A stretch of 45,089 nucleotides of DNA, from positions 718,402-763,490 of the forward strand of contig CP070728.1 in the NCBI GenBank assembly GCA_020351025.1. Reading direction: 5' to 3'. Positions within the stretch are counted from its first letter, which is position 1, and every line of letters starts with the position of its first letter. Source of the stretch: Planctomycetota bacterium. Lineage in GTDB: Bacteria; Planctomycetota; Phycisphaerae; Sedimentisphaerales; Anaerobacaceae. A model generated the notes under the pieces. That model ran no database searches, had not been told where the DNA came from, and was given only the letters and a program-made list of their open reading frames with translations. Made by a program: the position numbers and the translations under genes. This document shows, one piece after another, positions 237 through 19,057 of the stretch.

Positions 237-268
237 TTCTTTTCTTTGATGATGATGCGTAATGAAGC

Positions 269-1015
269 TTATCCTTTCCTGAACCAGAACATCCCGCACC
301 CATATCTTGCATTTTCCAGAGTATCTATCTCTATATTTTCAATGAATCTTTTATCATCATCCGAACCGGACAGCTCAACTAACTTAAGATTACCAAAATA
401 CTCAAGGATTTGCTTAGGTGAGTGGATTCTATGAGCATTAAAGCAAAGTCGTGGCTTGCCCACCGGAACCGAAAAGAAAAGATTACCTCCTTGCGCTAGA
501 CACCGCGATAGTTCTCTTGCTGCCTTCTTTGTCCCAAGTGAGTCTAAATTATCACCATATCTGCCAAGGCCGATATGTTCTGCAACATGAAGGCAGGAAA
601 TTGATTCCAAGGAGTTATCAGAGTAGGGCAGATCCAATATGCTCCCTTTTTTATTCTCAATATTGTCAAGGTATGGTGCATCTAAAGGCCTAATATCTAC
701 AAAATCAACTTTTGTTATAGTCGTCAGAAAACCAACAAAATTAACATTCGACCCTACATCTACATGCAAACTCGGCTTTAGTGCATATATCTTCTTAAAA
801 GCCCAAATATCCTGATAAAAATAATGGCTGTCTATCTTCGTCTTACTTGTTCTGTCAAATAAACATGGATATGTATCTCGAAATTTAATTAGTTCAGCCC
901 CGTCCATCTTGCTGTATTTACGCATGTCTTTTATATATCTCGGGTACTCTAACAACGCGAGCAACGGTTTTCCCTTCCTGAAAGGCCTTTTCCACCTGCT
1001 TAGAACACTTGACAT
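269..1015 (-). CDS. DUF268-like, methyltransferase-fold protein
   Basis: The 248-residue protein has a SAM-methyltransferase-like core. An acidic glycine motif (HVDVGSNVNFVGF) is followed by FVDIRPL, an ILDLPYSDNSLESISCLHVAEHIGLGRYGD-type stretch (written here in part; it runs over about 30 residues), and a late CFNAHRIHSP motif. This combination is what I know from the DUF268 family, found in polysaccharide loci with no settled function. I chose ATG at 1015 because a GGAGGGAG sequence lies 8-11 bases upstream; an in-frame TTG at 1033 is the alternative. It sits between a glycosyltransferase-like gene and an FkbM gene on the same strand. A role in glycan modification is inference. Confidence 0.7.
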   Translation of the reverse strand: MSSVLSRWKRPFRKGKPLLALLEYPRYIKDMRKYSKMDGAELIKFRDTYPCLFDRTSKTKIDSHYFYQDIWAFKKIYALKPSLHVDVGSNVNFVGFLTTITKVDFVDIRPLDAPYLDNIENKKGSILDLPYSDNSLESISCLHVAEHIGLGRYGDNLDSLGTKKAARELSRCLAQGGNLFFSVPVGKPRLCFNAHRIHSPKQILEYFGNLKLVELSGSDDDKRFIENIEIDTLENARYGCGMFWFRKG

Positions 1016-1035
1016 CCCTGTTACTCCCTCCAAAC

Positions 1036-1980
1036 CTACACATTAGATACTGCTTCGTTACGGATTAGTTTGAAATATTCCGGACCGCAGTGTATAGCCC
1101 TCGGTTTATTCTTCGCAATGTAATCGATATCTAACCTGTAACCCTGTTTATATTTTGCCGCCAGTGCCTCAACCGTATAATTAAATGAGCTGTTGAAAAT
1201 CTTACGCTCAGTTACATTCACCATATTTACCTGTACCGCACAGGCACATTGTTTTTGAAAATAAATAAAGTTCGGCAGCTCGTCACTGTGCCTCTGGCAC
1301 CACCTGCAATTCCAGGATTCTAGAGTATTGGGATTATAAAAATAGCCGAACGACTTTAAAATTGGCCGTACTGAAGTTATTTTCCCTAACGCTTTTATTA
1401 AACCGGACTTTGGTGAGAATAACTTTTTGGCTAGTATATTATTATTTTGTGACGAACTTATTATTCTTTTGACAAGATGAGTTTGATAAATTGTCGCGCA
1501 TAATTCGAATGGATACCTCGTACTTGGCGTCCTGCCTTGTTTCCAGTTCACCCTGTACACTGCTTGCCCGCCCGTAACAGCTTCACTAATTGTATCACCG
1601 CATTCCCTGATGCCCTCCTCACTAAACCGGAGCGAAAAGCCGAAAATATCTCTTGCGTATTTACTAAATGTCTCGTCAATTATATCAAAATCAACAAAAT
1701 CAAAACAAACAACGTCATCTATGCCAAACAAAATATAGTCGGTGTCAATCTTGTCTAAAAGTCCTGAAAAATCACTACTAAAATCCTCTTCTTTTATCAC
1801 AACACAGCTTGGATACTTTTCAAAAAGCTGCTCATACTCTTGTTCAAACAGTTCAACCTTATAAATAATATACGTTTGAATCAGTTCTTCTGGTAAATAC
1901 CGGTAAAGACTCTCTAAATACCCATCAAGCTGTAAAGGCCGATTCTTCGTAAATACAATGTTACTTATCTTCTTAGCCAT
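1036..1980 (-). CDS. GT-A-like glycosyltransferase-related protein, function unknown
   Basis: The 314-residue product starts with a strand and loop (SNIVFTKNRPLQLDGYLESL) like the opening of GT-A glycosyltransferases. It then has a stretch ending DTDYILFGIDDVVCFD, where the acidic pair could play the role of a DxD metal motif. I do not recognise a specific family. ATG at 1980 is preferred over an in-frame TTG at 2010 because a plausible promoter at 2022-2049 would put transcription start near 2015. The stop is about 20 bases from the start of the DUF268-like gene, so the two are probably cotranscribed. Cys and Trp residues near the C-terminus (NCRWCQRH) are notable and could bind a metal. Confidence 0.6.
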   Translation of the reverse strand: MAKKISNIVFTKNRPLQLDGYLESLYRYLPEELIQTYIIYKVELFEQEYEQLFEKYPSCVVIKEEDFSSDFSGLLDKIDTDYILFGIDDVVCFDFVDFDIIDETFSKYARDIFGFSLRFSEEGIRECGDTISEAVTGGQAVYRVNWKQGRTPSTRYPFELCATIYQTHLVKRIISSSQNNNILAKKLFSPKSGLIKALGKITSVRPILKSFGYFYNPNTLESWNCRWCQRHSDELPNFIYFQKQCACAVQVNMVNVTERKIFNSSFNYTVEALAAKYKQGYRLDIDYIAKNKPRAIHCGPEYFKLIRNEAVSNV

Positions 1981-2021
1981 ACTTGATTTATTCAAAAAAA
2001 ACGACCGCAACTGCGATATGA

Positions 2022-2049
2022 ATTATCGCTCATTTTGCAATTTTATCAA
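2022..2049 (-). promoter_or_regulatory. Possible sigma-70-type promoter for the 1980-to-1 gene group
   Basis: On the minus strand a TTGATA hexamer (2044-2049) and a GATAAT hexamer (2022-2027) are separated by 16 bases. Each differs by one base from consensus. The predicted start near 2015 leaves a leader of about 35 bases before ATG 1980. The surrounding 149 bases between genes are AT-rich. Only sequence similarity supports it. Confidence 0.4.
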
Positions 2050-2159
2050 CAGACATTTCACTTTTTTACTGTTTGTTACAAAACCAAAATCCCCTCAAAT
2101 CGCCTTTTTATATAGATGTGGGGAAATAGATACATTTGAAGGAGGATGTAATTGGGCCG

Positions 2160-3119
2160 TCAGTTAAATATGCGTTGACCGCCAAGGAGGTATCCTGAAA
2201 GTATTTTCAGTTTTCTTAGCCAGTAGTTCAAGCCACCAGCGCTTTTTTTGCCAAGATAAAATTTACGGTTTATTCGATAATCCAAGACCTTTTGACGATA
2301 CAGCTTTAACTCTTCCGGCTTAATTTCTTTTATAATATTTGATTTGCCGTCTCTGAAAATGTGCTTTTTGCTGCCGGAAAGTACCTCGTTCCCATATCGT
2401 ATGATGGCGGACTGATACTGTTTTTTCATGTCCCGACCTAATTTAGCGGATTTAATTCGATTGCTGTCATGATGATATCTGCCGAAGCTGGCAACTACAG
2501 GTAAGAAATACGGGAGATAACCCTTCACATTAAAACTATAATTGAAGCTCAAAAGCGGATCGTTTTGTAAGAAGAAATCCGTGTCTGCATACTCGGGAAA
2601 ACATTTTTTGTACACATCAGCACGTACACAAAAGGTACTTTCCGGACAAAGGCAAAAAGTCCCCAGCCAAAAGGGGAAAAAACTCGTTTTTTGCGGTGGT
2701 GGGTGGTTTAGATAACCGGACGGTACGATTTTTCCCAATCTTCCATCTTCGCTCATCTGCTGAGTAAGCCCGTAAACCAGCGACACAGTAGGGTCATTTT
2801 CCAGTACTTCCATGCACCTCTCAAACCAACTACTATCCAAATATCCATCTGAAACAGAACACAGCATAATATACTCACCACAAGCCATAGTCATCGCTTT
2901 GTAAAATCCCTCGTCTGCATTTTTGTCGGGCTCTGATATCCATCTTATGTCTTTATATTCTTTGAGGATTTCTATCGTGTCATCCGTAGATGCGCCGTCC
3001 ACCAAAACGTGCTCGTAGTTTGTAAAGCTCTGCTCTAAGACCGACCCAATTGTTTCACGCAAAAAACGCGCGCCATTTTTAGAAGCTGTGATAACAGATA
3101 TTTTGGGTCTTGGAGCCAT
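2160..3119 (-). CDS. GT2-family glycosyltransferase
   Basis: The 319-residue product opens with KISVITASKNGARFLRETI, then SVLEQSFTNYEHVLVDGAS and TDDTIEIL. This is the classic nucleotide-sugar-binding half of a GT-A glycosyltransferase of family GT2. The usual DxD position reads SVSDG, around residue 92. It would transfer a sugar from a nucleotide donor to a growing glycan at the cytoplasmic face. The ATG at 3119 follows a GAGGT sequence. The C-terminal region is basic and could sit at the membrane. A gap of 216 bases separates it from the radical SAM gene upstream, so it may have its own promoter. The sugar cannot be inferred. Confidence 0.88.
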   Translation of the reverse strand: MAPRPKISVITASKNGARFLRETIGSVLEQSFTNYEHVLVDGASTDDTIEILKEYKDIRWISEPDKNADEGFYKAMTMACGEYIMLCSVSDGYLDSSWFERCMEVLENDPTVSLVYGLTQQMSEDGRLGKIVPSGYLNHPPPQKTSFFPFWLGTFCLCPESTFCVRADVYKKCFPEYADTDFFLQNDPLLSFNYSFNVKGYLPYFLPVVASFGRYHHDSNRIKSAKLGRDMKKQYQSAIIRYGNEVLSGSKKHIFRDGKSNIIKEIKPEELKLYRQKVLDYRINRKFYLGKKSAGGLNYWLRKLKILSGYLLGGQRIFN

Positions 3120-3182
3120 CTTTTAACCTCGTTGGACTAGTGTGTAAATACTCCCCCAAGCGGGGATGCCCAAAATGGCGGC

Positions 3183-3269
3183 TCAATACCTGTTAAAGCA
3201 AACGTACTGAGCTGTCCACAAATTTTTTTGTCTGCCTAGCTTTACGATTAGAATATCAGTTGAATACAT
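3183..3269 (-). CDS. Possible 28-residue ORF in an intergenic gap
   Basis: The gap 3120-3335 holds no recognisable gene. The only thing that stands out is a 28-codon ORF on the minus strand starting at ATG 3269, with AGGAAA six bases upstream and a stop at 3183-3185. Its product is unlike anything I recognise. An open frame this short in AT-rich DNA can arise by chance. Confidence 0.15.
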   Translation of the reverse strand: MYSTDILIVKLGRQKNLWTAQYVCFNRY

Positions 3270-3335
3270 TTTAATTTCCTGATTTTATTATTATGAGAAT
3301 TATTTTATCACAGGATTATTTTTTTGTGATTAGTG

Positions 3336-4637
3336 TTAGAAAATCAAATTTCTATCCCGAAGAATAGCTTGAAGTTCGTTATAATTGTTAAGAATCTTTT
3401 CGGCACTCAGACTCTCGCCCCACGGAGTTGTTTTCTTGTATTTAAACAATAAATGCGGCTTCTCATTTTCGTCAAATCGACCAAAAACAGTATAGTAGTC
3501 ATCCCAGTTTTTGTTAGTAATTCTCATGCCGAATTCATCGGGATTATTAGCAATCTTTGTCCCCGGCATTGGACATAAAAGGGATAGCAGAACCGATTTT
3601 GGTTTAGTTTCGTCTATAAAATCCAACGTACGGGAAACGATGTCCTCGGACTCGCCCGGCAGTCCAAAAAGAAAATTAAGCCTAACTCCTATTTCGTATT
3701 TGTGAAGAATATTTATATATTCTTTGGCTTGATCTAAATCGATTTTTTTATTAACAAGCTTAAGAGCTTTAGGGGACATGCTTTCTATGCCGACACCGAT
3801 ATCAGCACATCCAGATTCTTTAGCAAGCTTAACCATATCTTCTGAAATCCCATTGGCGCGGGATTGGCCACGCCATTTCACTCCAGTACGTCCGATGGCT
3901 TCCAAAAAGGGTTTTGCGATTTTTTTATCAATGGGGATGCTGTTATCGTCTTTTATCGCCAATGCCTCAACCTTATATTCTCTTTTAAGATACTCAATTT
4001 CTTCTTCAATCAATTTAGGAGCGCGGAACCTTGTTGTTCCAAGGATTATTTTTGCACAGAAATAACAATTGAAAGGGCATCCCCTTGAAAATAGCGCATT
4101 TGTTCCGAGTAAGTGTTTGTTTTCTCCGTCTAAGATCCCAGTATCAACCACAGAGGGATAAGGTAGATATTTACGAAAAGGATAAGGATATTTGTCTAAA
4201 TCTATGGCGTCGCTGTTTTCATAAACGGGTTTAAGGTTATTTGCTAAAATATCTTTAATTATTTGACTGATAATTTCTTCACCTTCTCCGATAGCAATAG
4301 AATCGAATCCTTCCGAAGTCTTTTCCTTAAAGATAATAATATGAGGACCTCCGACTATATGCAGAGATTTAGGGTAGATAGAGCGAATTACGTCTCGAAT
4401 CTTGCAGATAGTGGAGAACTCCGGGCTCATGGCTGTATAAGCATAAACATCCATTTCGGGGATATAATAATTGATGTATTTTTTGTCGACTCCTCGCAAA
4501 TCTATCAGTGACAACTCAATTTTATTTCCGAGCCTTTCTTCAAGTATTGACATGAGATAAAGAACAGTTAAAGGCTGATTTCTAAAAGGTGCAAAGTTTA
4601 CAGTATCAGGAGGCAGTATGAAGCCTACGTGTAACAT
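3336..4637 (-). CDS. B12-binding-domain radical SAM protein (first of four)
   Basis: The 433-residue protein has an N-terminal Rossmann-like cobalamin-binding-type domain (about residues 1-140, with IVGGPH near 95-99 and a GEGE turn near 117-120). A radical SAM domain follows, in which C187, C191 and C194 (RGCPFNCYFC) form the CxxxCxxC motif that holds the SAM-bound 4Fe-4S cluster. GVGIES near 280 is the usual core motif. No DxHxxG motif is visible in the B12 domain. Relatives modify lipids, tetrapyrroles, sugars and antibiotics, often by C-methylation. The substrate here is unknown, though its place in a glycan locus points to a sugar or lipid-linked intermediate. Confidence 0.88.
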   Translation of the reverse strand: MLHVGFILPPDTVNFAPFRNQPLTVLYLMSILEERLGNKIELSLIDLRGVDKKYINYYIPEMDVYAYTAMSPEFSTICKIRDVIRSIYPKSLHIVGGPHIIIFKEKTSEGFDSIAIGEGEEIISQIIKDILANNLKPVYENSDAIDLDKYPYPFRKYLPYPSVVDTGILDGENKHLLGTNALFSRGCPFNCYFCAKIILGTTRFRAPKLIEEEIEYLKREYKVEALAIKDDNSIPIDKKIAKPFLEAIGRTGVKWRGQSRANGISEDMVKLAKESGCADIGVGIESMSPKALKLVNKKIDLDQAKEYINILHKYEIGVRLNFLFGLPGESEDIVSRTLDFIDETKPKSVLLSLLCPMPGTKIANNPDEFGMRITNKNWDDYYTVFGRFDENEKPHLLFKYKKTTPWGESLSAEKILNNYNELQAILRDRNLIF

Positions 4638-4921
4638 GATCTATTCTTTCCCACACATCCTTATGTTTGTATAAGATTCTACAATAGTAACTGCGCTAGA
4701 CTACTAATTATAAACTCACTACTTTTTGCGGACAAGTTAAAATACCACATAAACCTATAGAAAACCGGTAATCGTGTGAAAATTGTCAGGAAGCATATCG
4801 TGATTTTGCCTAAAAAGGCCTGGCTTTATCCAAACATTATTCTTGCCTTGTTTTTAATACCTTTTATGTTCAAAAAAAAATTTATAGAATTAAGTAAAAA
4901 TCTTTCATGGCGAAACTTAAC
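4638..4921. other. Intergenic stretch with no supported gene
   Basis: This 284-base AT-rich gap separates the radical SAM gene from the NUDIX gene. An open frame on the plus strand (4776-5093) runs into the NUDIX gene on the opposite strand, and its second half mirrors NUDIX coding sequence. I therefore treat it as a shadow. I see no convincing promoter or terminator here. Confidence 0.5.
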
Positions 4922-5452
4922 TCATAGAAAATTAAACAAAGATTTTGCTTTTGATATGAAATATACAGCTATTCCTGTTGACTCATTATACGTTCCATTT
5001 AGTATATATTCCTTAAAGGATTCTCGTGAAACCAAAACAACCTCTATATGGCTGTCATCTTTATTCTTTAGTAATTCCGCCTTATTTCCATAATAAGCAT
5101 GTATCGTATTATTTATTCGGCTGGGACAAATCTTTAATGCGCCCAAATATATTATTTGTGTACAGCAGTATCCTGTTTCTTCTTGCAGTTCTCTTCGAAT
5201 GGTTTCCTCATGTGATTCCCCTTCCCGAACATATCCAGAGGGCAGCTCAAGAGTATATCCGTTCTGTGGCTGTCGAAACTGACGCACTAATATAAACTTA
5301 TGATCAAGTGTCTGAGCAAGTATAACTGCTGAATCAGGACACGAAATACTGTAATACGGTTCCGCTCCCGATTCCAGTGGAATTGCATCTATCGAAAACC
5401 ACGGTGTCTCAAAAGCTTTTTTTGTGCCCTTGTTATAATCGTCTTTTGCCAT
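4922..5452 (-). CDS. NUDIX hydrolase, ADP-ribose pyrophosphatase-like
   Basis: The 176-residue protein carries a complete Nudix box, G-x5-E-x7-REL-x-EE-x-GY, with the REL-x-EE core at about residues 86-91. It binds the Mg ions that cleave a nucleoside diphosphate linked to another moiety. Preceding residues (FRQPQNGYTLELPSG) resemble the ADP-ribose pyrophosphatase and GDP-mannose hydrolase branches. The gene stops 469 bases into the strand gap and starts 6 bases after the stop of the ColD-like gene, so it is probably coexpressed with it. Hydrolysis of a nucleotide sugar is therefore as likely as ADP-ribose turnover. Confidence 0.88.
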   Translation of the reverse strand: MAKDDYNKGTKKAFETPWFSIDAIPLESGAEPYYSISCPDSAVILAQTLDHKFILVRQFRQPQNGYTLELPSGYVREGESHEETIRRELQEETGYCCTQIIYLGALKICPSRINNTIHAYYGNKAELLKNKDDSHIEVVLVSRESFKEYILNGTYNESTGIAVYFISKAKSLFNFL

Positions 5453-5458
5453 TTACTT

Positions 5459-6628
5459 TCATACTTTATTCAATATATCACAAAGCGATAAAATCTTCTG
5501 CTCTTCAAGCTCAGGGTAGTTGCCGATGTAATATCCATAAAAGTGAATGTGCTCCACTTCAGGATATTTTTCCCATTCTTTATTAGGTATAATCTCCCTA
5601 AGATACGGTTGCCTTAGCTGATTGCCTCCGCCGGAGCTGCCGCGGCGAAACTCTACCCCGGCTTTATGCAGTGCCCTTTCAACTCTATCTCGAAACTCCG
5701 GGTTAGGTTCCTTAATTACCAGATTAAAGGCATAATTGCAGCTCCCTTCTAAGTCGAAATCGGTTCTATATTTGTTGCCGTCAAGATTTTTTAAAAAAAT
5801 TCCAAAGTTCTTTTTGCGCTTAACGTTATTTTCATCAAGGCGTTTAAGTTGATTGCGCCCTATAACAGCGCCAATCTCGGTGTTGCGCACGTTATAAGCA
5901 GTGTAAGCAAATATAAAGTCAGGACTAAGTTCAGGATTTTCTTGTATATATTTTTGTTTAAATTTATCGCTTGATGCTTCACGCACCATACCGTGAGAGC
6001 GCAGCATACGAACCATTTCGTATATGTCCTCGTTATTAGTACAAACCATCCCCCCCTCAATCGTGCTCATGTGATGTGCAAAATAGAAGGAAAAATTCGA
6101 TATCAGGCCGAAACTACCCAGCTTTTTCCCTTTAAATGTCGCACCGTGAGACTCGCATACATCTTCAATTAATGGGATGTTCCGCCCTTTAAGAGTCGAA
6201 ATTAACTTGTCGGTCAATCCGTTGAATCCCTGTACATGGGTGAGAAATACCCCTCTTGTCTTATCAGAAAGCTTGGCAATTACCTGTCCATCATCCATAC
6301 ACAAATTTTTAGGATTGATATCAACGAAAATGGGTGTAAAATCATTTTGAAGAACACAAGCAATATCCGATACCCACGTCAATGTCGGGACAATGATTTC
6401 CCCGCCACCATGAAGATGCTTCAGTACTGCCATCGTGACGAGATTTGCCGATGCCCCGGAATTTACATAGACGCTGTAGCGTACGCCCAGCCACTTAGAC
6501 CATTCACTTTCAAAAGCCTGAACATTGCTCGACTGTGTAAGACGGGGGGTTCCCTTGAGAAATTCAATCAGAGCATCAAGGTCTGCTCTGGTGATATTAT
6601 TCTCCATTAAAGCCCAGTTCAACTTCAC
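5459..6628 (-). CDS. DegT-family sugar 3-dehydratase, ColD-like (catalytic Lys replaced by His)
   Basis: The 389-residue fold-type I PLP enzyme belongs to the DegT/DnrJ/EryC1/StrS family. NSGASANLV near 56-64 and EDVCESHGA near 155-163 hold the cofactor. Where sugar aminotransferases have the Schiff-base lysine, this protein reads SFYFAHHMSTIEGGMV with His185-His186. In the family, His at this site defines the 3-dehydratases ColD (GDP-4-keto-6-deoxymannose to the 3,6-dideoxy sugar) and the iron-sulfur E1/RfbH enzymes. The length matches ColD, and the N-terminal cysteines of E1/RfbH are absent. The start is GTG at 6628; its product begins immediately before the conserved NWALMENNIT segment. 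It implies a 3-deoxy or 3,6-dideoxy sugar in the glycan. Confidence 0.8.
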   Translation of the reverse strand: MKLNWALMENNITRADLDALIEFLKGTPRLTQSSNVQAFESEWSKWLGVRYSVYVNSGASANLVTMAVLKHLHGGGEIIVPTLTWVSDIACVLQNDFTPIFVDINPKNLCMDDGQVIAKLSDKTRGVFLTHVQGFNGLTDKLISTLKGRNIPLIEDVCESHGATFKGKKLGSFGLISNFSFYFAHHMSTIEGGMVCTNNEDIYEMVRMLRSHGMVREASSDKFKQKYIQENPELSPDFIFAYTAYNVRNTEIGAVIGRNQLKRLDENNVKRKKNFGIFLKNLDGNKYRTDFDLEGSCNYAFNLVIKEPNPEFRDRVERALHKAGVEFRRGSSGGGNQLRQPYLREIIPNKEWEKYPEVEHIHFYGYYIGNYPELEEQKILSLCDILNKV

Positions 6629-6646
6629 AGCCAGCCACTCACAAAT

Positions 6647-9643
6647 TCAATAAATCCCATCCTGCCCATTTTCTCTAATCTCCCTCACCAGCCTTAATCC
6701 AAGGTGCTCGTGTCGAAAAGCTGGGGGATAGTTTGTTTTTAAGTCATATAGGTTTGTATTTTCGTCTCGCCAACTCCTGCCAAAGCATATATATGGACTG
6801 CCTGGTATCGGTTTAACTTGTGAGTCATAGTATATTTGATTTGCTGTCCATTCCCAGACATTTCCTATCAAATCATAAAATCCCCCGGCGATAGGATGCA
6901 ACTCGCCGGCAGCATGCGTCATTCCTTCTGCATTATATTTCAGCCATGCATGTTTATTAATATCATCCTGCTCGCTTGTGTACATTGTATATAGGTTGAC
7001 TAAATGCAAATACTCTTTTTCAGTAGGCAGCCTGTATAAGTTAACATCCTCAATCCTGTTTAAGCGATTTATAAAATCCTCCACCATATAGTAAGAAACA
7101 TTTTCTACGGGCCGGCTGTCATCCCGAAACTTGCTTGGATTATAACCCATTACTTCCATCCACTGCTTCTGCGTTACCTCAAACATGCCCATCAAAAAAT
7201 CATAGCCTTGCCCTGATACCTTTTTGAATTGTATGCCAATAGGATTTACGTAATTTGCTTGTTCTAAAGGAACTGTGACTTTCTTAGAAGCTGCCACCAA
7301 TTGCGGATTTTTATCATAAACCGAGTATTTAACTTCTTCCCGTAAGTAGTCATATTCAAGCAGGTACTTGGGTTCTTTATTATCTATAAAACGGTTAAAT
7401 AATCCGTCAATACAAGTCTCATGATACCACGCAAACGGTTCTATTTCTGGGGGACGGTCGATTATCTTGAAAGAAAAATCCGGCTCTTTTTTGCGCTCTT
7501 TGACAAATTCTCCAACTGAATCAAAATAATTTTTCAAAGGTGCCGTTTCTTCTTGTATTTTTACGTTGATTTGATGTGTCTTGAAAGCGTGATTAACTAT
7601 TAAAAAAACCAGGATTGTAAAAAGCGAGAAACCCAACTTGTTCTGTTGTCTCATTTTATCGAAATCAAAAAATGAATAGATGATAAATATAACCAAAGCG
7701 CACACGCAGTAGGAATAGTGACCTGCAATATAGCCTAATCTCACCAAAATGTTTATGTACCAGGCACGGCCAAAACATATAATTATTAAAACAGAAAAAA
7801 TTAAGAAGATTGAAAAAATAGCTTCTTTGGGTATCTGCCTGAATATTCTCCCGCGCATTAAAATACAAAAGAAGATTAATGCAATTAGCAGCGCAATACC
7901 AACAAGAAAAACGTTGACATACACTTTATCACTACATTTTATTCCGGTAAAAAAAGGGAAGAATATTCCAGATAGCAACATCATTACAACTCTTACCAAA
8001 TTGATAAAAGGCTTCCATAAAGCAACCATACTTGACTGGCCGGTCATTTGGAAATTGGGATACACAAAATATAGATGAACGGAAAAGAATATCCCCCATA
8101 GGAACATCGGTAGCAGAATTATAAACCAACTGCACCTGTCCTTCAATCTAACCGCTGTTTCGCAGCGCTCCCTGAAGATAACCCAGTACGCAATAAAGAA
8201 ACAAATGGGCATGAGAAATACAACTTCTGTCGTGAGAAGATTCAGCGAAAGGAGTAACCCCGTTAACACAAAACCTTTTAGAGCAGATATTTGATTTTGT
8301 ATGGTTTTGCAGAGTGTAATAACTGCTAAAATAGTAAATATAGCTGTCGTTATGTATGCGCCAGTATGTGGCCATATTACAGGGTCCGAATTTACAATTA
8401 AAACGGAAAACAATAATGCAAAAACAGCAGATATCCGTCGATGGCTACCTTGCCACATAAACCACCATAAACAAAATGTGGCAAGAATATGCTTTATAAA
8501 CGTTATAATATGAAACCCCACATAATTGGTATCAAAAACGACACGGTTTAAAGCTACCATGCTTTGAGAAAAAGGGCGGAACATCAAACGGTCATAGGGT
8601 AACCTTAGTTGCCAGTCGATATGATTAATAAAAAACCAGAGATTAGGTAATTCATCTTTAGATGTAAAAAAAAGAAACCAGTCATCATGACGAAAAAGAT
8701 GAAAAAAACTCGGCCAGTAGACCCAAAGATTGACAATAATTATCAAAACAGAAAAAACCACACCCACTGGGATATTAAATTTTTTCTGGGCAAACAAAAA
8801 ATCCACTAATTTCCTAAAGAAAACAAGGTTTTTCTTTAATATTTGATATAACCGAATAGCTAATAAAGGAGCTAAAACAATAAAGACAAATTCCCAGAAA
8901 AAATCAGGCGTAAGCACCGCTCTATAACCTGAATTGGCGCTTATCCATCCGACCACAAAAAACAACAGGAAAAGGAATAATAGTGACAGTAAGTACCTCT
9001 GGCAATAAAGAGAAAGCCTGTCTTTACTTAAAAAAAAGTTCCTACCAAGAAAATAAGCTATTATCCATGACAATAAAATTAAAATGTTAGTAAAAGGTGT
9101 GATTCTAAGGAAGGCCTTACCTGTTGGTAGATATACTGAATCGGGAAATAAAATATAGGCAATATCGACTATCCGTTTTCTATAATTCGTAAATCTAATC
9201 TTTACATCCGAGGCCAAATCCTTCGAAAAGATTATATCTACGCTGTTTACCCCCTCCCTGACTCTTTCTTTGGGAAGGCGTATATAACTCGTTTCGACAT
9301 ATCTTCTTTCGCGCCTGTAATGAAATATATTGGCAGTAAACTTAATCCCGTTAAAAAAAATCTCCCTCTGTATATTTTTGCCTATTTTATGTGTTATCTG
9401 TAAAAGATAAGCATCTTTAGGAAGTTCAAAATTTACTCTTATCCTATTCCCCTTTAGGTAAAACGTGCGTTTGATTTTTTCAAATTTTTCGTGCGGGCTG
9501 CTGATAACCGCAAAGCTGTATAGAGAAGTTAAGCAAATCCCGACAAAAATTAACCCTGTAATGATAAAAAACCTGTTTTTCATTTTAATGATGAGGTTAT
9601 ACTGAAGATGAGGATTACCTTTGCCATTAAAGTATAAAAACAT
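6647..9643 (-). CDS. GT-C-like polytopic membrane protein with a C-terminal FGE-sulfatase (SUMF1-like) domain
   Basis: The 998-residue protein starts with a signal-anchor helix, then an extracytoplasmic domain (about 35-165). A large block of hydrophobic helices follows (about 180-680), containing RHDDWFLFF and RPFSQSMVALNR, which resemble the first-loop acidic motif and following helix of GT-C glycosyltransferases (PMT/ArnT-like). From about residue 799 it becomes an FGE/SUMF1-like domain: FEVTQKQWMEVMGYNPSK, PVENVSY, YRLPTEKEY, FYDLIGNVWEWT and a terminal HLGLRLVRE. The copper-binding Cys pair of true sulfatase-activating FGEs is not visible, so the domain may only bind ligand. An internal ATG at 9583 begins right at the signal anchor and may be the true start. 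Neither start has a clear ribosome binding site. Confidence 0.8.
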   Translation of the reverse strand: MFLYFNGKGNPHLQYNLIIKMKNRFFIITGLIFVGICLTSLYSFAVISSPHEKFEKIKRTFYLKGNRIRVNFELPKDAYLLQITHKIGKNIQREIFFNGIKFTANIFHYRRERRYVETSYIRLPKERVREGVNSVDIIFSKDLASDVKIRFTNYRKRIVDIAYILFPDSVYLPTGKAFLRITPFTNILILLSWIIAYFLGRNFFLSKDRLSLYCQRYLLSLLFLFLLFFVVGWISANSGYRAVLTPDFFWEFVFIVLAPLLAIRLYQILKKNLVFFRKLVDFLFAQKKFNIPVGVVFSVLIIIVNLWVYWPSFFHLFRHDDWFLFFTSKDELPNLWFFINHIDWQLRLPYDRLMFRPFSQSMVALNRVVFDTNYVGFHIITFIKHILATFCLWWFMWQGSHRRISAVFALLFSVLIVNSDPVIWPHTGAYITTAIFTILAVITLCKTIQNQISALKGFVLTGLLLSLNLLTTEVVFLMPICFFIAYWVIFRERCETAVRLKDRCSWFIILLPMFLWGIFFSVHLYFVYPNFQMTGQSSMVALWKPFINLVRVVMMLLSGIFFPFFTGIKCSDKVYVNVFLVGIALLIALIFFCILMRGRIFRQIPKEAIFSIFLIFSVLIIICFGRAWYINILVRLGYIAGHYSYCVCALVIFIIYSFFDFDKMRQQNKLGFSLFTILVFLIVNHAFKTHQINVKIQEETAPLKNYFDSVGEFVKERKKEPDFSFKIIDRPPEIEPFAWYHETCIDGLFNRFIDNKEPKYLLEYDYLREEVKYSVYDKNPQLVAASKKVTVPLEQANYVNPIGIQFKKVSGQGYDFLMGMFEVTQKQWMEVMGYNPSKFRDDSRPVENVSYYMVEDFINRLNRIEDVNLYRLPTEKEYLHLVNLYTMYTSEQDDINKHAWLKYNAEGMTHAAGELHPIAGGFYDLIGNVWEWTANQIYYDSQVKPIPGSPYICFGRSWRDENTNLYDLKTNYPPAFRHEHLGLRLVREIRENGQDGIY

Positions 9644-9664
9644 AATATCAGTTCATTATTTCCC

Positions 9665-10369
9665 TTAGCTCCACCAAAATTTTTCTCTAATCAACTGAAA
9701 AAGGTATGCTGCTCCCCATCGAAACGCCTTTAATTTCGCTTCCCCCCCGATCCTTGCCGGTTCATCCCCCGGAATCTCAGCAATTTTTAATCCTCTCTTG
9801 GCGGCTCGGATAGATAATATAATCTCCCACGATATTCCCGTACGTAACAATCTCTCAGGTGTTGAATAAGTAATTTCCTTGTCCATATCCAGCTCTTTGA
9901 TAAGACTCTTTTTGTATATGCGATAGATATTCATAACATCTGTATATTTGGCGCTGTATAAAAGATTAACAAGGGTGGTAAACATCCAGTTGCCGAACGC
10001 CGTTACCAGATTATCATCGTAGCTTTTTGCCCCTTCTCTATAACGGGAGGCAATTACCATATCGTACCCTTCCTTCATCTTTGCAACTAATGAGGGAATC
10101 AATTCGGGAATGCAATTGCCGTCGGGACTGAAGGTAATAACTGTGTCGCTCTCAATTTCATCAACTGCCTTTAGCATCGTGCTGCGCAACCCTTCGCCAT
10201 TCTCCGAGAACAAAACGTAATTATTCTTTTTCACATATTCAGATGTTCCATCTGTAGAATTTCCATCGATAAAAACAATTTCGTCCACCCACCCATCTTT
10301 AATTCTTGGCATGATTGATTCTACACCGTCAATTTCATTAAGTGTTGGAATTAATAATGCTACTTTCAT
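9665..10369 (-). CDS. GT2 glycosyltransferase, dolichyl-phosphate-mannose-synthase-like
   Basis: The 234-residue protein begins KVALLIPTLNEIDGVESIM and continues with EIVFIDGNSTDGTSEYV and FSPDGNCIPEL. These are the donor-binding motifs of the GT2 branch that moves a sugar to polyprenyl phosphate (DPM1/ArnC-like). No C-terminal membrane helices are present, so it would be a short, peripheral form. The gene ends 22 bases before the large GT-C/FGE gene. Polyprenyl-phosphate sugars are the donors used by GT-C enzymes, so a donor-maker next to a GT-C acceptor enzyme makes sense. GAGGACAAGTA precedes the ATG and gives a usable ribosome binding site. Confidence 0.85.
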   Translation of the reverse strand: MKVALLIPTLNEIDGVESIMPRIKDGWVDEIVFIDGNSTDGTSEYVKKNNYVLFSENGEGLRSTMLKAVDEIESDTVITFSPDGNCIPELIPSLVAKMKEGYDMVIASRYREGAKSYDDNLVTAFGNWMFTTLVNLLYSAKYTDVMNIYRIYKKSLIKELDMDKEITYSTPERLLRTGISWEIILSIRAAKRGLKIAEIPGDEPARIGGEAKLKAFRWGAAYLFQLIREKFWWS

Positions 10370-10426
10370 TACTTGTCCTCAGTTAATAAACAAAAGTCCC
10401 CAAAAATCGTTTGATGGAGTATTTAG

Positions 10427-11851
10427 TTAAAATGCCCTCTCAAAATCATTGCTGGCTACAGCATAATTACCTGAAGAATTAGACCTTCTAACAATGCTGT
10501 ACTCCAGCAGTTTCTTAAGAATGAACTTAATATGGGGCAATCTTAACAACCTTATAATCTTAAAACACACACTTGGCCTAAAATAAAACTTCTTAAACGC
10601 TCTTGTTCGTGCCTCAAGAAGTTGCTCTTTCGACAATCCTTCCGGTATAAATTCAGGTTCTCTATAACTAAACTTAACCCAGTCTGGAACAAACTCCCCC
10701 TTCAGAGTGTCCCATAACTCTGAGCCGGGTAATACATCTAACAACAGAAAATCCGCCTTTATCAAGGCGGTAGTTCTGGAAAAATTTATAGTTTCTTCAA
10801 TCGTCTCCTTTGTTTCTCCAGGAAGCCCAAAAATAAAAGACCCCCCTACATAGATACCGACTTTATCACAGAGTTCTATCGCTTTGCGTATTTGCTCAAT
10901 CGTTTCCGCTTTTTTTGCTTTCTTCAAAATCTTTGGATTTGCAGATTCTATCCCGAGCTCAACATAATAGCATCCGCTTCTTTTCATAAGCCGCAGTAAT
11001 TCTTCATCGATCTTGTCGGCTCTAATACCATCCGGTACACTCCAGCTTATTTTTATCTTATTTTCTATAAGCAATCGGCAGATCTTCTCTATATGATTTC
11101 TTTTGAACGTCAAATTATCATCAAAAAAATGAATTTCACGAACGCCAAAATTATCCATCAAATATTCTATTTCTTGAATAACGTTTTCAGGGCTTCTGTA
11201 CCTCATCCGACAATCATAAAACTTTGGACTTCCACAAAAAGTACAGTTATAAGGACAACCTCTCGTAGTCATAATAATTCCGACCGGATAATCCTTATTG
11301 AAAAAACCATGTGGGGTATTAGGGTAGCTATTAGGATTGAGTGATTCCCAGTCTGGAAAAGGAATGTCGTCAAGATTTTTAACAACCTCTGCTTTCTCTA
11401 TAGAACTGTCGGAACCCTTGAGATTGCTCAGTGAGTAAACACCTTTGATATTATTATTTATCAGATTATTTTCAAGCAGTGCTAACAGTGCAATCTCCGC
11501 CTCACCGCATATTACATAGTCAGCGTTTGAATCTAAAAGGGTTTGATGTGGGAGAAAAGTTGCATGTGGACCGCCGATAATACAGGGAATATTATTCTTC
11601 TTGATTTCTTTTGATAACAGCACAGTCTCATTATAATGGGAAGTGTAACAGCTGATTCCCACCGCATCTGGAGTTTCACTCAGTATTTTCCCTGCCAAAG
11701 CGTTAAAATCTAACTTATTCTTTAAGCCGTCGACTATCGCCGTTTCGATCCCATACCTTCTAAGATGACCCGACAAATACCCAATTCCTAAAGGTGGCAT
11801 CACTACATGATTTAGACTTCTGTGATTTGGTCTAACTAAAACCACTTTCAT
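10427..11851 (-). CDS. B12-binding-domain radical SAM protein (second of four)
   Basis: The 474-residue protein has a B12-type Rossmann domain (VRPNH near 6-10, PPLGIGYLSGHL near 19-30, IIGGPHATFLP near 91-101) and a radical SAM domain with C199, C203 and C206 in RGCPYNCTFC. ELGIES near 285-290 and FGLPGET near 345 are typical. No DxHxxG cobalamin-coordinating motif is seen. The closest look-alikes are the BchE/HpnP/TsrM-type group with very varied substrates. AAGGAAG lies 10-16 bases upstream of the ATG. A 57-base gap separates it from the GT2 gene, so it probably belongs to the same transcript. It is clearly less similar to its two upstream neighbours than they are to each other. Confidence 0.87.
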   Translation of the reverse strand: MKVVLVRPNHRSLNHVVMPPLGIGYLSGHLRRYGIETAIVDGLKNKLDFNALAGKILSETPDAVGISCYTSHYNETVLLSKEIKKNNIPCIIGGPHATFLPHQTLLDSNADYVICGEAEIALLALLENNLINNNIKGVYSLSNLKGSDSSIEKAEVVKNLDDIPFPDWESLNPNSYPNTPHGFFNKDYPVGIIMTTRGCPYNCTFCGSPKFYDCRMRYRSPENVIQEIEYLMDNFGVREIHFFDDNLTFKRNHIEKICRLLIENKIKISWSVPDGIRADKIDEELLRLMKRSGCYYVELGIESANPKILKKAKKAETIEQIRKAIELCDKVGIYVGGSFIFGLPGETKETIEETINFSRTTALIKADFLLLDVLPGSELWDTLKGEFVPDWVKFSYREPEFIPEGLSKEQLLEARTRAFKKFYFRPSVCFKIIRLLRLPHIKFILKKLLEYSIVRRSNSSGNYAVASNDFERAF

Positions 11852-11933
11852 ATGTCTTCAACTTCCTTAGTGACGCATACATCAATTAGGCTTTAATGTT
11901 GGCAATGCTGCTTTTTCAAAAATATGATCATCT

Positions 11934-13373
11934 CTAATCGCCTAATAACCGCCTTCTCAATTTACGCTTAAGCATATCTCTTATATGCTGAAGTGTCTCT
12001 TGCCCGAATTTATCTAAAACCATATTCTGGTATCGTTCGCTGCCGTGGTACTCATTGAAAGCATTGTCTCTAAACTGCAAAATCTCGGTATCGCTTAGGT
12101 GTTTGGTCGGCAGCGGCTGGGTCTCGTAACCGTACTGAGAATATCCAAGCCAGGTATCGGGCAGCTTGGTACCGTTAGTCACCGCTTCTTCATAAAGCTT
12201 AGAACCCGGATAGGCCATCGTAACGTAAAAATTTCCGTATTCACAATTTATCTCTTTCGCCATATCCAGTGTCCCTCGCATCGTGTCGAAGTCGTCATCA
12301 GGAAGGCCGAATATGAAATTGCCCCCTGTACATACGCCGGCATCTTGCATCATTCGCGCAGCCTTTAACATCCGGTCATCATCAAACCTGCCTTTACTGA
12401 CCTTATCTCGTATCTTCTTGACACCGGATTCAAAACCTATACCCAGCCAGTTAATGCCTGCCTGCTTCATCTTCTCCAGTTTTTTCTCATTGATTGTATC
12501 AACTCGGGCATATGCCCATATATTCAAATCATACTTTCTCTCTATAATAAGCTCACAAAACTCAATAACGTGTCTTTCATTTAAATCGAACATCTCATCG
12601 ATAATCTTCAGATTCTTAACACCATGCTTGTTCACAAGATAATCTATCTCTTCTGCGACTTTCTTAGGGGCTCTGTACCGTATTTTGTGTTTCCCAAAAA
12701 TTGCATTGATACAGCAGAATGAACAGTTAAATGGACAACCTAAGCTTGTATATATAACCCCGTATGGAGTCCTGTCATTTATATGGCCGAAGCAATGCCA
12801 GTTGTGGGCCCGGTATTTATCCATGGGCAATAAATCCCACGCCGGCATAGGCAAATCGTTTGGGTCAAACAATTCGGCTCGCGGATTGCAAACAAAACGC
12901 TCGTCTTCTTTATACCACAACCCTTTTATATCACTGCAATCAATCCCCGAAAGCAAATCTAACAATGTGGAGAACCCTTCTCCCTCGCAAACCATATCTA
13001 CCGGCTCTTCGGTTAATGTTCTCTCCGGAAGCGCCGATGGATGCAATCCTACGAGTATCGTTGTTATATCAGGTGCTGCTTTTTTAATCTCGTGCAATAT
13101 CGTCCGTGCCCCTACCATATTCATCGTTGACGCCGATGGGTTCGTACCTGATACAACCACCGCTACCAATCGAGCCTGGCTTTCGGTCACTGCCGCTATT
13201 ACGCTCTCCGACTCTATCTCAGAGTCTATTATCCTCACTTCGTAACCTTTTCCCCTGATAAATGCACCAAGTAACGCTGCCCAAAGTGGTGGCTCAAGAC
13301 CGGACAGTGTTTCACTTAACTCCTGGTAAAGTTTCTTCTGAGCGCCGGGTTTTATGATTAGAAGGTCCAGCAT
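11934..13373 (-). CDS. B12-binding-domain radical SAM protein (third; paralogue A of a tandem pair)
   Basis: The 479-residue protein shares its whole layout with the adjacent 13312-14745 gene. Both have MLD-L-L-I-x-PG at the N-terminus, a B12-type domain, a linker with MPAWDLLPMDKYRAHNWH, and the radical SAM motif (C213, C217, C220 in LGCPFNCSFC). Both also share MKQAGINWLGIGFESG and FGLPDDDFDTM. The C-terminus has a basic patch. The start at 13373 lies inside the preceding gene, overlapping it by 62 bases, so translation is likely coupled, although a later start cannot be excluded. C-methylation or another radical modification of a pathway intermediate is inferred from family membership only. 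Confidence 0.87.
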   Translation of the reverse strand: MLDLLIIKPGAQKKLYQELSETLSGLEPPLWAALLGAFIRGKGYEVRIIDSEIESESVIAAVTESQARLVAVVVSGTNPSASTMNMVGARTILHEIKKAAPDITTILVGLHPSALPERTLTEEPVDMVCEGEGFSTLLDLLSGIDCSDIKGLWYKEDERFVCNPRAELFDPNDLPMPAWDLLPMDKYRAHNWHCFGHINDRTPYGVIYTSLGCPFNCSFCCINAIFGKHKIRYRAPKKVAEEIDYLVNKHGVKNLKIIDEMFDLNERHVIEFCELIIERKYDLNIWAYARVDTINEKKLEKMKQAGINWLGIGFESGVKKIRDKVSKGRFDDDRMLKAARMMQDAGVCTGGNFIFGLPDDDFDTMRGTLDMAKEINCEYGNFYVTMAYPGSKLYEEAVTNGTKLPDTWLGYSQYGYETQPLPTKHLSDTEILQFRDNAFNEYHGSERYQNMVLDKFGQETLQHIRDMLKRKLRRRLLGD

Positions 13374-14745
13374 CGGTTATTGCTATCCTCTCGTAATCCC
13401 TGCCTATCTTCCTTTTCAGCATATCCTGTATATATTTTTTCATCCCGAATTTCTTCTCTATCATGTCCTGATATCTTGAACTCGAAAAGAACGTATTAAA
13501 TGCCTTGTCCCTGAATCTCACCACATCTTCACTGCCGACATGCTTTGTAGGAAGAGGCCTCGCATTCGGCGCAAAAAAACCATACTGCTCCCATTTCTCA
13601 GGTAAATCCTTGGCATCAGCTTTATCATACATCTCAGTCCCGGGATAGGGCATCGCTATAAAAAAATTGCTCCACTCGGTATTAAGTTCTAACGCCAAAT
13701 CAATCGTGTCCTGCATCGTATCAAAATCATCATCAGCAAGCCCGAATATATAGTTTGTACCCACATTCATCTCTGCATCATGGGCTATTTTCATTGCTCT
13801 GTGAATTTGCTCTAAGTTTTGTTTTTTAAGTACCGAGTCCAGAATTTTCGTATTGCCCGCCTCGACCCCCATAAAAACCCAGTTGATGCCCGCTTTCTTC
13901 ATCTTCTCCATTAAATATGCGTCCGCCGTGTCCGTCCTCGAAAATGCCCACATATTAAAATCGTATTTCCGCTCAATTAATAAATCGCATATCCTTTCTA
14001 CATGTTTCTTATTCAAGGTGAATGTGTCATCAATAATCTCAATGTGTTTGATGTTGTATTTATTGTAAAGAACATCAAAGTCCTGAATTACACGCTCCGG
14101 ACTCTTCCTCCTGTAAATCCTTTTGCCGTATACCACCGAAACACTGCAAAATTTACATTGAAAAGGACATCCAAGACTTGTGTAAACCAGGGCAAACGAA
14201 TTCTTCTGACCAATACCCCAGCTCTGCCAGTGGTGTGCTCTGTATCTGTCCATGTCAAGCAGGTCCCATGCAGGAAGAGGCAGCTCGTCTATATTCTTCA
14301 TAGGCTCTGCAATCTGTATCGCCTCTTTTCGACCGTCAAGTATCTCTATGATAGGTTTGTACCCCTCCCCTTTAACTACAAAATCCACTTTCGTCTCCGC
14401 CAACGTCGCTTCAGGAATCGCTGAACAGTGGTGCCCCCCAATGATAGTTCTTATATGAGGCGCCCTTTCTTTTAGAAGCCCCAATACTTTATTTGCTGCT
14501 GTCATCTTCGTTGTAAATGCCGTAATACCTGTAAATTTCGGCCTGCGCAGTATAATTTCATCCACGGTCTCGCTGGGTGACAAATCCAGAACCTCGGCAT
14601 CAAGAATCTCAACCGAAAAGTTGTGCTGCCTTATATAAGCAGCCAGCATAGCAATACCTAAAGGTTGTGCTACCGTCGCGTATTCTGAAACCCCGCCAAA
14701 TTGGGAGAGTCGATTACCCGGATTTACCAGCAATATATCTAACAT
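13312..14745 (-). CDS. B12-binding-domain radical SAM protein (fourth; paralogue B of a tandem pair)
   Basis: The 477-residue protein has a B12-type domain (PLGIAMLAAYIRQ near 28-40, IIGGHHCSAIPEATL near 101-115) and a radical SAM domain with C193, C197 and C200 in LGCPFQCKFC. MKKAGINWVFMGVEAGN, FGLADDDFDTMQDT and FRDKAFNTFFSSSRYQDM have direct counterparts in the 11934-13373 gene, so the two arose by tandem duplication. It overlaps the E1 beta gene by 7 bases and its paralogue by 62 bases. That interlocking ties the radical SAM pair to the aminotransferase, condensing enzyme and TPP enzyme. The substrate is unknown. Confidence 0.88.
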   Translation of the reverse strand: MLDILLVNPGNRLSQFGGVSEYATVAQPLGIAMLAAYIRQHNFSVEILDAEVLDLSPSETVDEIILRRPKFTGITAFTTKMTAANKVLGLLKERAPHIRTIIGGHHCSAIPEATLAETKVDFVVKGEGYKPIIEILDGRKEAIQIAEPMKNIDELPLPAWDLLDMDRYRAHHWQSWGIGQKNSFALVYTSLGCPFQCKFCSVSVVYGKRIYRRKSPERVIQDFDVLYNKYNIKHIEIIDDTFTLNKKHVERICDLLIERKYDFNMWAFSRTDTADAYLMEKMKKAGINWVFMGVEAGNTKILDSVLKKQNLEQIHRAMKIAHDAEMNVGTNYIFGLADDDFDTMQDTIDLALELNTEWSNFFIAMPYPGTEMYDKADAKDLPEKWEQYGFFAPNARPLPTKHVGSEDVVRFRDKAFNTFFSSSRYQDMIEKKFGMKKYIQDMLKRKIGRDYERIAITDAGPSNHKTRRSEETLPGVK

Positions 14746-15626
14746 AGTATATTCTTCACCGCTGCAACAATCTTTTCGGCCGATGGCGTCTCGTTACGAG
14801 ACTCGTAACTTACTCCTACCGACCTGTCTTCCAAACCAAATGCTTTCACCGGTTTACCCGTTTCCAACATAAGCTCATATGCTATCGATTGGGCCGCGCC
14901 GCATATCTCAAATGTCGCATCAATTACTAAGCCTGCTCTGCTGTTTGCTAATGAACCAAGCAAATGGTCTTTCTTGAGTGGCTTTAGCCACATAACATGG
15001 GCAACATTACATTTAATACCTTCCAGATTTAATTGCTCTATCGCTGCATCCACGTTAAAGCGGGCCGCTGAAATCGGCATCAGTGTTATATCTGCTTCGT
15101 TATCTGTATTCGAAAACTCCCTCGTACTGCTGAAACTCGTTCTGTGCTCGCTGACAATCATAGGGTCGTCATGGGCCATAAAATCATCCCACCCTTCCTC
15201 GTATTCTTTCGGTGTCATAGGTGAACAGACCCTGAAACCCGGCATATGCATAAATATGCTATGTAAGATACCCGAGTGAACACAGCCTGCGTTCTCCTGC
15301 GCCAGTGCCCTGACAAATATCGGCGTCGGTGTACCCAAAATATCTTTGGATTTTGCAGCATAATTCACCAAGGTACTGTTATTAAGCCATAGAAAATCCT
15401 GAAACCGAATAACTATCATAGGACGCTTGCCAGCTATGGCTGCACCACAAACTATCCCCATGTTAGATACGTCTGACATCGGAAACTCAACTATATTCTT
15501 ACAATTTGGAACTGTATTGTTTACCCACCCAACTGCTGTAATTGCCTGTCCGAACAAAAGTTCGTTATTATCATTTAAATGTCTGCGAGTAATCTCTTTT
15601 ATAGTTTCTGCAACTGTCTTTGCCAT
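14739..15626 (-). CDS. E1 beta subunit-like protein (transketolase C-terminal type) of a TPP-dependent enzyme
   Basis: The product is about 295 residues from ATG 15626, which overlaps the E1 alpha stop by 28 bases. An ORF can be read further upstream, but that part mirrors E1 alpha coding sequence and is unlike the family. It has the E1 beta pattern: NELLFGQAIT at the N-terminus, EFPMSDVSNMGIVCGAAIAGKRPMIVIRF (given here as the region around residues 50-80), and a C-terminal transketolase domain with ADITLMPISAA and VIDATFEICGAAQSIAYEL. It pairs with the preceding gene to form the alpha-beta heterotetramer that holds TPP. No E2 or E3 genes are nearby, so a normal 2-oxo acid dehydrogenase complex is unlikely. 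Decarboxylation or carboligation of a 2-oxo acid is the inference. Confidence 0.85.
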   Translation of the reverse strand: MAKTVAETIKEITRRHLNDNNELLFGQAITAVGWVNNTVPNCKNIVEFPMSDVSNMGIVCGAAIAGKRPMIVIRFQDFLWLNNSTLVNYAAKSKDILGTPTPIFVRALAQENAGCVHSGILHSIFMHMPGFRVCSPMTPKEYEEGWDDFMAHDDPMIVSEHRTSFSSTREFSNTDNEADITLMPISAARFNVDAAIEQLNLEGIKCNVAHVMWLKPLKKDHLLGSLANSRAGLVIDATFEICGAAQSIAYELMLETGKPVKAFGLEDRSVGVSYESRNETPSAEKIVAAVKNILC

Positions 15627-16426
15627 AGCTCTCTTACGCGAGCCTGTATCTCGCCCTCTATTTCCTCTGCATTCGGTACTATATCTCTCATCTCTGCTAT
15701 TCTGTCTCGTTCCGGCGGACCATCCGTGCCAATGCCAACATGCCAGAGATGCCTGCACGTCCATATGTTAACAAAGGCAGGAAGCTCATCAAGCAATCCG
15801 CTTACAGTTTCTAATATTAACCTCGGCTCATCTTCAATAGCCATGCTCTTTAACCCCATAGCTGTTGTAACCTCGTAAACATTCCACTTTCTTCTGGCAT
15901 CAATTGGCGTCAGAATAGATAAGTTGTTATCCTCGCAAACATACAAAATCGGCAATTTATGAGTCGCAGCAAAACCAAATGTTGCTAATGCATAATCTTC
16001 CTCTGACGCCGCATCACCAAAGTACGCCACTGTTGGTCTGCTGGAAGCTAATGAATATCCCGTCGCTAAAGGAATGTTCTCACCTATAAGCCCGTGATGA
16101 CCGTACATCGGAATGTCTAAATCCTGTATACACGGTGAACCCCCCCTCCCTCCGCAACAGCCTGTTCTCAGACCTAAAAGTTCATCTATAAGACGTTCTA
16201 TATCGCCCCCATATGCCAAATAGGCTGAATGACCGCGATGTTGGGTAAATACTGCAAAGTCTTTGGTAAGAGTCGAAATCGTCGCGGATATAGCCTCTTG
16301 ACCAACCGACAAATAAACAGGTCCTGGAGTAAGATTGCCTTTCACTGCTTCTGCAACTTGAAGCTCGAAATAGCGAATCAGGCACATCCTCCTGAATATC
16401 TCTTCTAAATTCGTTTGCTCAGCCAT
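15599..16426 (-). CDS. E1 alpha subunit-like protein of a TPP-dependent 2-oxo acid enzyme
   Basis: The 275-residue protein has the thiamine-diphosphate fold. The N-terminal PGPVYLSVGQEAISA and TQHRGHSAYLAYGGD segments are E1 alpha hallmarks. The TPP/Mg motif GD-x26-N is present from G137 (GDAASEEDYALATFGF onwards) to CEDNNLS near 164-170. It lacks the long regulatory and phosphorylation loops of mitochondrial E1 and is shorter than the usual 320-370 residues. It overlaps the condensing enzyme by 22 bases and E1 beta by 28 bases. Related stand-alone pairs include acetoin dehydrogenase-type enzymes and 2-oxo acid decarboxylases. The two Cys at C90-C91 next to GGRGGS are a distinctive detail. 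Confidence 0.87.
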   Translation of the reverse strand: MAEQTNLEEIFRRMCLIRYFELQVAEAVKGNLTPGPVYLSVGQEAISATISTLTKDFAVFTQHRGHSAYLAYGGDIERLIDELLGLRTGCCGGRGGSPCIQDLDIPMYGHHGLIGENIPLATGYSLASSRPTVAYFGDAASEEDYALATFGFAATHKLPILYVCEDNNLSILTPIDARRKWNVYEVTTAMGLKSMAIEDEPRLILETVSGLLDELPAFVNIWTCRHLWHVGIGTDGPPERDRIAEMRDIVPNAEEIEGEIQARVRELWQRQLQKL

Positions 16427-18787: not shown

Positions 18788-18815
18788 TTTTTTAACCCCT
18801 TTTTATAAGTTTTCC

Positions 18816-18905: not shown

Positions 18906-19057
18906 AGGGCTTTGTTTATTATCGGTCTTTTTCTATCTTACGCCTGAATGTTTTGGCAACTATAACCCAAAATGTTGCTATAATAACAAACCGCAATCAT
19001 CTCTTCGGCACATCAGGCAAATGAAAATCCTTGCTCAGGCGGCTCGCTTGTATAATG

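Follow-up and report, generated by a model that had tools for sequence, protein, structure and literature searches.

The window analysed here is a stretch of 45,089 nt from contig CP070728.1 of a Planctomycetota bacterium. On its minus strand, positions 6647-9643 hold one open reading frame of 998 aa, free of internal stops, whose translation may in fact begin at the second in-frame ATG (residue 21). From the N- to the C-terminus the encoded protein consists of a TM helix, a beta-rich domain, three TM helices, an 11-TM GT-C core, a linker domain and an FGE-fold domain (Table 1). The join of a GT-C-like region to an FGE domain near residue 799, as proposed by an earlier sequence-only reading, is borne out by the open reading frame, a PF03781 match and GT-C sequence matches; the N-terminal TM helix, beta-rich domain and three TM helices, as well as the conserved linker (residues 701-790), had gone unmentioned there. 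Family-averaged hydropathy assigns the N-terminal module to a TM helix at 27-45, a soluble domain at 46-180 and TM helices at 181-199, 218-236 and 248-266.

Table 1. Features of the fusion gene and its two flanking genes (positions in the window)
Feature	Positions	Strand	Basis
GT-C + FGE-fold fusion protein, 998 aa	6647..9643	-	single ORF; same architecture in L127 (989 aa), L189 and L113
N-terminal module, residues 27-266	8846..9565	-	family-averaged hydropathy
beta-rich domain, residues 46-180 (~135 residues), predicted periplasmic	9104..9508	-	low-confidence fold-model strands; hydropathy topology
GT-C core, residues 285-700, 11 TM helices	7544..8791	-	hydropathy, profile matches, TMTC loop order (PMC7801869)
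H319-D320-D321, acidic motif M1, first outer loop, putative catalytic	8681..8689	-	relatives and fusions
W424-x-H426-x-x-x-Y430, replacing W-x-x-x-R-x-D (M3) of relatives	8354..8374	-	residue counts
T472-E473, replacing K-[PE] (M4) of relatives	8225..8230	-	residue counts
H642-Y643-S644-Y645, replacing R-x-x-Y (M7) of relatives	7709..7720	-	residue counts
linker domain, residues 701-795, contains WYHETCIDGLFNRFIDN	7259..7543	-	conserved among fusions
FGE/C-type-lectin-fold domain, residues 800-990	6674..7246	-	PF03781; Foldseek FGE fold; pLDDT
GNVWEW core motif of FGE fold, residues 927-932	6848..6865	-	alignments A2 and A8
GT2, DPM-synthase/AglJ-like, upstream neighbour	9665..10369	-	AglJ model; PDB matches
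DegT-family enzyme, ColD/RfbH-like PMP-dependent 3-dehydratase, downstream	5459..6628	-	PDB match

Homologous loci were located in named genomes with the neighbouring GT2 as query; a contig scan with the GT-C half alone gave no match. The same domain pair was recovered in three further genomes, one from the same family (L189, genome G527), one from the same order (L127, an Anaerohalosphaeraceae MAG) and one from an uncultured Elusimicrobia MAG (L113), so that at least four genomes, from two phyla, have the fusion. The L127 homolog has 989 aa and aligns over residues 15-988 (phmmer E=2.8e-202), the L113 homolog (L113:5723-7765) is ended by a contig edge after 681 aa (E=8.4e-107), and the L189 homolog (L189:859-3165), also ended by a contig edge, spans residues 243-994. 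The true N-terminus of the latter is missing, and its first residues, RNVTGVQTCALPI, are presumably a translated sequencing adaptor, which they resemble. The N-terminal module is also present in L127, whereas in L189 and L113 it would lie past the end of the contig; the linker (701-790) is 74% identical to that of L189 and 51% to that of L127. The fusion is rare among the genomes sampled, which cover part of the species: it was found in 3 of 161 genomes of the order, where the L127 genome, present as both G530 and G479 with identical contig number and coordinates, was counted once, in 1 of 325 in an Elusimicrobia-centred search and in none of 236 in a Nitrospirota-centred one. An Omnitrophota-centred search of 384 genomes gave stand-alone GT-C relatives only (L190-L197, 485-648 aa) and no fusion. 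The four fusions form one clade (98/98 support), and fusions plus relatives are separated from the TPR-type group with 100/100 support in a midpoint-rooted tree with long branches.

Neither Pfam nor NCBIfam matched the GT-C half. In tblastn against 392 genomes of the phylum, residues ~275-631 weakly matched membrane proteins (E 2.5e-7 to 9e-4), which, examined singly, were mostly GT-C-like with C-terminal TPRs, and an independent phmmer comparison linked the GT-C half to TPR-type GT-C proteins (E 7.6e-9). As both approaches led to TPR-type GT-C proteins, the half is not a chance hydrophobic run, and its sequence assigns it to the GT-C fold superfamily as a relative of the TMTC/TPR-type GT-C proteins. 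A profile from the TPR-type relatives (A1) matched in 138 of 148 genomes of the order; a 344-bit match with this profile is not independent because the profile includes the query. The window's own genome (G000) gave 12 matches, that is, about 12 TPR-tailed GT-C proteins at 12 places, an expansion common to much of the order. Foldseek with the whole model led to AglB, Pmt4, OST and ArnT as best matches, the top 19 being GT-C proteins throughout, all with E > 0.001. This full-length model, built from an alignment with GT-C rows only, has a pLDDT of 53.9 and a misfolded FGE part, and its quality does not allow the C-terminal domain to be positioned; as alignments of mixed GT-C and FGE rows were misaligned, the two halves were also modelled separately.

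Core TM helices were assigned at ~291-309, 379-397, 404-422, 427-445, 452-470, 473-490, 504-522, 576-594, 607-625, 643-661 and 670-688 by simple hydropathy averaged over the four fusions and a single-sequence scan, which is a prediction and not a solved topology. The eleven helices, their loop order and a long fourth outer loop between TM7 and TM8 agree with the arrangement described for TMTC (PMC7801869); a hydrophobic helix within that loop (546-564) is probably non-spanning. Positive charges concentrate in the loops predicted inside. The four motif sites (DD, W-x-H, T-E and H-Y-x-Y) are predicted to lie on one side, together with the beta-rich domain and the C-terminal 310 residues, FGE domain included. 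From hydropathy, positive-inside bias and analogy to TMTC, we infer that this is the periplasmic side.

The first acidic motif is well preserved, with D320 kept in 29/29 relatives and D321 in 28/29; the four fusions have HDD or HDE here. The remaining motifs are changed. Position 428 is R in 28/29 relatives and G in the query, so that the RxD of M3 is missing (G428, Y430), with H426 and Y430 found in 4/4 fusions; position 472 is K/R in 29/29 relatives and the fusions have T-E throughout; position 642 is R in 28/29 relatives, and H642 and Y645 occur in 4/4 fusions. In place of the KE of M4 and the ERxxY of M7 the query thus has T472-E473 and G641-H642-Y-S-Y645, in which Lys, Glu and Arg are gone and E473 and Y645 retained. 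The query also keeps P357, H378, H385, an acid at 420, P479, P563 and Y645 of the 29 relatives and is without H415 (27/29) and P416 (29/29). In models of TMTC, ArnT and OST the M3 Arg/Asp, M4 Lys and M7 Arg contact the sugar or phosphate of the lipid donor (PMC7801869). These residues are replaced throughout a 12-member clade that comprises the fusions and, as their sister clade, the eight stand-alone relatives from the Omnitrophota-centred search; Y430 and E473 are present in 12/12 members, and W424 is nearly invariant among the stand-alone proteins, which differ from the fusions in lacking the FGE domain and in mostly having Gln as the second Asp. Because the replacements are shared, we regard the two groups as a distinct clade with a site of its own.

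For the C-terminal domain, Pfam on the whole 998-aa protein gave PF03781 (FGE-sulfatase) and no other family, with residues 820-987 matching profile positions 67-255 of 255 (E=2.3e-15, 57.4 bits, cut-off 23.3) and the first 66 positions unmatched. In the separate model, residues ~799-930 have pLDDT values mostly of 76-96, and most of the last 60 residues are poorly modelled; Foldseek led to T. denticola TvpA (E=1.5e-10), PvdO, CarF and human FGE. EVTQ and GNVWEW are retained, and WEYACRAG and CRxAxR are absent. The lack of a copper Cys pair, noted from the sequence before, holds for the whole family, as 4/4 members are non-Cys at both positions; these are D960 and L965 of the query, which we take, in a register set by hand, to be the places of human FGE C336/C341. 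The FGE domain is 64% identical to that of L189 and 46% to that of L127, the GT-C core 61% and 41%; since the domain at least matches the core in both pairs, it is under selection. Both copper cysteines are missing, yet the conservation is that of the GT-C core, and the best reading of these sequences is therefore a non-catalytic, retained binding domain rather than a formylglycine enzyme. The domain scores lower in L113 (19.3 bits, cut-off 23.3), where its C-terminal half is degraded or very divergent and GNVWEW is absent.

The GT2 gene is separated from the fusion gene by 21 nt. It matches the AglJ model (E=8.4e-26, below that model's cut-off), and its PDB matches are of the DPM synthase, ArnC and GtrB type; it likely makes a polyprenyl-phosphate sugar donor. 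In each of the three loci with a readable flank on that side (window, L127 and L113) GT2 adjoins the fusion, the two genes facing each other on opposite strands in L113. A polyprenyl-P-sugar GT (GT-A)-like gene is hence found beside a GT-C gene in 3 loci, and multi-component transmembrane glycosylation systems are arranged in this manner, with a GT2 preceding a multi-TM protein (PMC8035078). In other phyla a multi-TM protein is the next gene in 21 of 79 loci with homologous GT2s, and ten of these proteins, when tested, gave matches that include PMT_2, PMT and YfhO. Downstream, the DegT-family enzyme has ColD as best PDB match (E=7.9e-48) and carries the HH active-site pair of PMP-dependent 3-dehydratases; its orthologs are 81% identical in L198 and 68% in L199/L127, and the DegT gene of L113 is distant (27%). 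Around the fusion, L127 and the readable part of L113 again have GT2, B12-radical-SAM, DegT-family and transketolase-like genes, and L113 in addition has a GHMP kinase (57%) and a nucleotidyltransferase (42%). The whole cassette (5459-6628, 9665-22858) encodes the ColD/RfbH-like 3-dehydratase, three B12-radical-SAM proteins, a TPP E1 alpha/beta-like pair, an isopropylmalate-synthase-like enzyme, a GHMP kinase, a nucleotidyltransferase and two epimerase-family genes, and looks like one for an unusual nucleotide sugar of the 3-deoxy type that may be branched or derived from a heptose. G+C is 0.38-0.39 at 1-12000 and 0.42-0.48 elsewhere in the window; together with the cassette genes common to the Elusimicrobia MAG, this makes a horizontal transfer of region 1-12000 possible.

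Among known systems, TMTC and the bacterial TPR-tailed GT-C proteins (PMC7801869) share with the fusion the 11-TM core, the Asp pair in the first outer loop, an RP motif, E473, Y645 and an outside C-terminal soluble domain. In contrast to them, the fusion has an FGE fold where the TPRs stand, replaced M3 Arg/Asp, M4 Lys and M7 Arg, and an extra N-terminal TM helix, beta-rich domain and three TM helices. AftD and YfhO likewise combine a GT-C core with a putatively acceptor-binding outer domain, and YfhO acts together with a polyprenyl-P-sugar GT (PMC8035078); the domain appended to the fusion differs in being of the FGE/C-type-lectin fold. FGE, PvdO, TvpA/TaqVP and PorK (FGE-subtype C-type-lectin domains) have the fold, EVTQ and GNVWEW in common with the fusion, which differs in lacking the Cu cysteines, diversification and the first part of the profile and in being joined to a GT-C core. 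Outer binding domains on GT-C enzymes are thus already known (AftD, YfhO, TMTC), and an FGE fold in this place is new within our searches: none was appended to the other GT-C proteins examined in this analysis, no polytopic protein occurred among those other long FGE proteins of relatives (about 590-960 aa) that were examined for TM helices, and the literature searched contained nothing pertinent on fusions of FGE-sulfatase and glycosyltransferase, which does not prove absence.

We favour, with a probability of about 0.58, an outer-face GT-C glycosyltransferase of a small divergent clade that is partnered by GT2 and carries an FGE-fold domain for acceptor recognition. A transferase is supported by the GT-C homology with its conserved Asp pair, the GT-C matches of the whole model, the adjacent DPM synthase/ArnC/GtrB-type GT2 and the GT-C-type multi-TM proteins beside homologous GT2s in other phyla, where two of the multi-TM proteins have lectin-like domains; recognition is supported by the conservation of the FGE domain, and the combination by the predicted location of motifs, beta-rich domain and FGE domain on one side. 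The replaced donor-contact residues count against a glycosyltransferase, as does the finding that neither a GtrA-type nor a Wzx flippase was among the genes scanned by Pfam from 269 to 22858; against acceptor recognition, FGE-fold domains are also known as scaffolds or enzymes. The earlier suggestion of a glycosyltransferase with a built-in recognition domain is thus supported in part: it stands as the best explanation and fits the neighbouring polyprenyl-phosphate glycosyltransferase, but the canonical donor-site residues are replaced. This leaves an unlikely but serious competitor, in which the GT-C part would be a pseudo-glycosyltransferase that kept fold and Asp motif, lost the binding of lipid-phosphate sugars and came to serve the FGE and beta-rich domains as membrane receptor, scaffold or platform for polymer handling. 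The loss of M3 Arg/Asp, M4 Lys and M7 Arg, each present in 28-29 of 29 relatives, across all 12 clade members and the Gln at the second Asp in most stand-alone relatives would agree with this. However, the pair stays DD/DE in all fusions, a polyprenyl-P-sugar synthase-like GT2 adjoins, and H426, Y430, T472, E473 and H642 are conserved between Planctomycetes and Elusimicrobia, which agrees more with an altered site than with a decaying one.

PF03781 takes in catalytic FGE, EgtB/OvoA and PvdO, which are present among the weak matches. That the FGE domain is an enzyme (forming formylglycine or carrying out some other oxidation) and the membrane part its anchor is nevertheless improbable given the non-Cys residues at D960 and L965 in every member, the missing first quarter of the profile and an 11-TM GT-C core whose conserved signature far exceeds an anchor; an active formylglycine-generating enzyme was rejected for want of the Cys pair. 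Very improbable is a diversified (DGR) display domain: the closest structure, TvpA, is a DGR variable protein, but a search of the genome for RVT_1 gave no match and the C-terminal segment is 52-61% conserved among the Planctomycete members, so a DGR target was rejected as well. The rarity of the fusion could also point to a frameshift, misassembly or chimeric gene call, which the sequence-only reading had named as fatal to its proposal; the uninterrupted frame and the independent copies in three other genomes, united in one well-supported clade, make the chance of such an artefact negligible, and it was rejected. Many known members with an annotated function would equally have spoken against that proposal, and no annotated function was found for the fusion.

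For the favoured glycosyltransferase, the fold families, the fusion, its recurrence, the missing copper cysteines, the conservation of the FGE domain and the shared cassette with its GT2 are established; transferase activity, polyprenyl-linked donor, sidedness and acceptor binding are all deduced from the comparisons above. GT2 would load the unusual cassette-made sugar onto polyprenyl phosphate, a putative flippase would bring the lipid-sugar across the membrane, and the GT-C core would attach the sugar to a glycan or protein of the envelope on the periplasmic face, where the FGE-fold domain, as a C-type-lectin-type scaffold on the same side, and perhaps also the N-terminal beta-rich domain, would hold or select the acceptor. 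A more far-reaching version, in which the clade has a rebuilt donor site (His/Tyr/Thr for Arg/Lys/Arg) for another kind of donor, an FGE acceptor reader and a phylum-crossing 3-deoxy-sugar cassette, is tentative and at present rather doubtful. Roles of outer domains in acceptor choice by GT-C enzymes have mostly been guessed so far. With a recurrent fusion to the well-studied soluble FGE/C-type-lectin scaffold it is possible to express that domain by itself and screen it for glycan ligands, and with the replaced donor-site residues the need for the conserved Arg/Lys contacts becomes testable. As a side observation, two of the multi-TM proteins next to homologous GT2s carry other lectin-like domains, F5/8C in L121:5711-7804 and LamG (ConA-like) in L149:5923-8613, as if such domains were swapped on membrane transferases.
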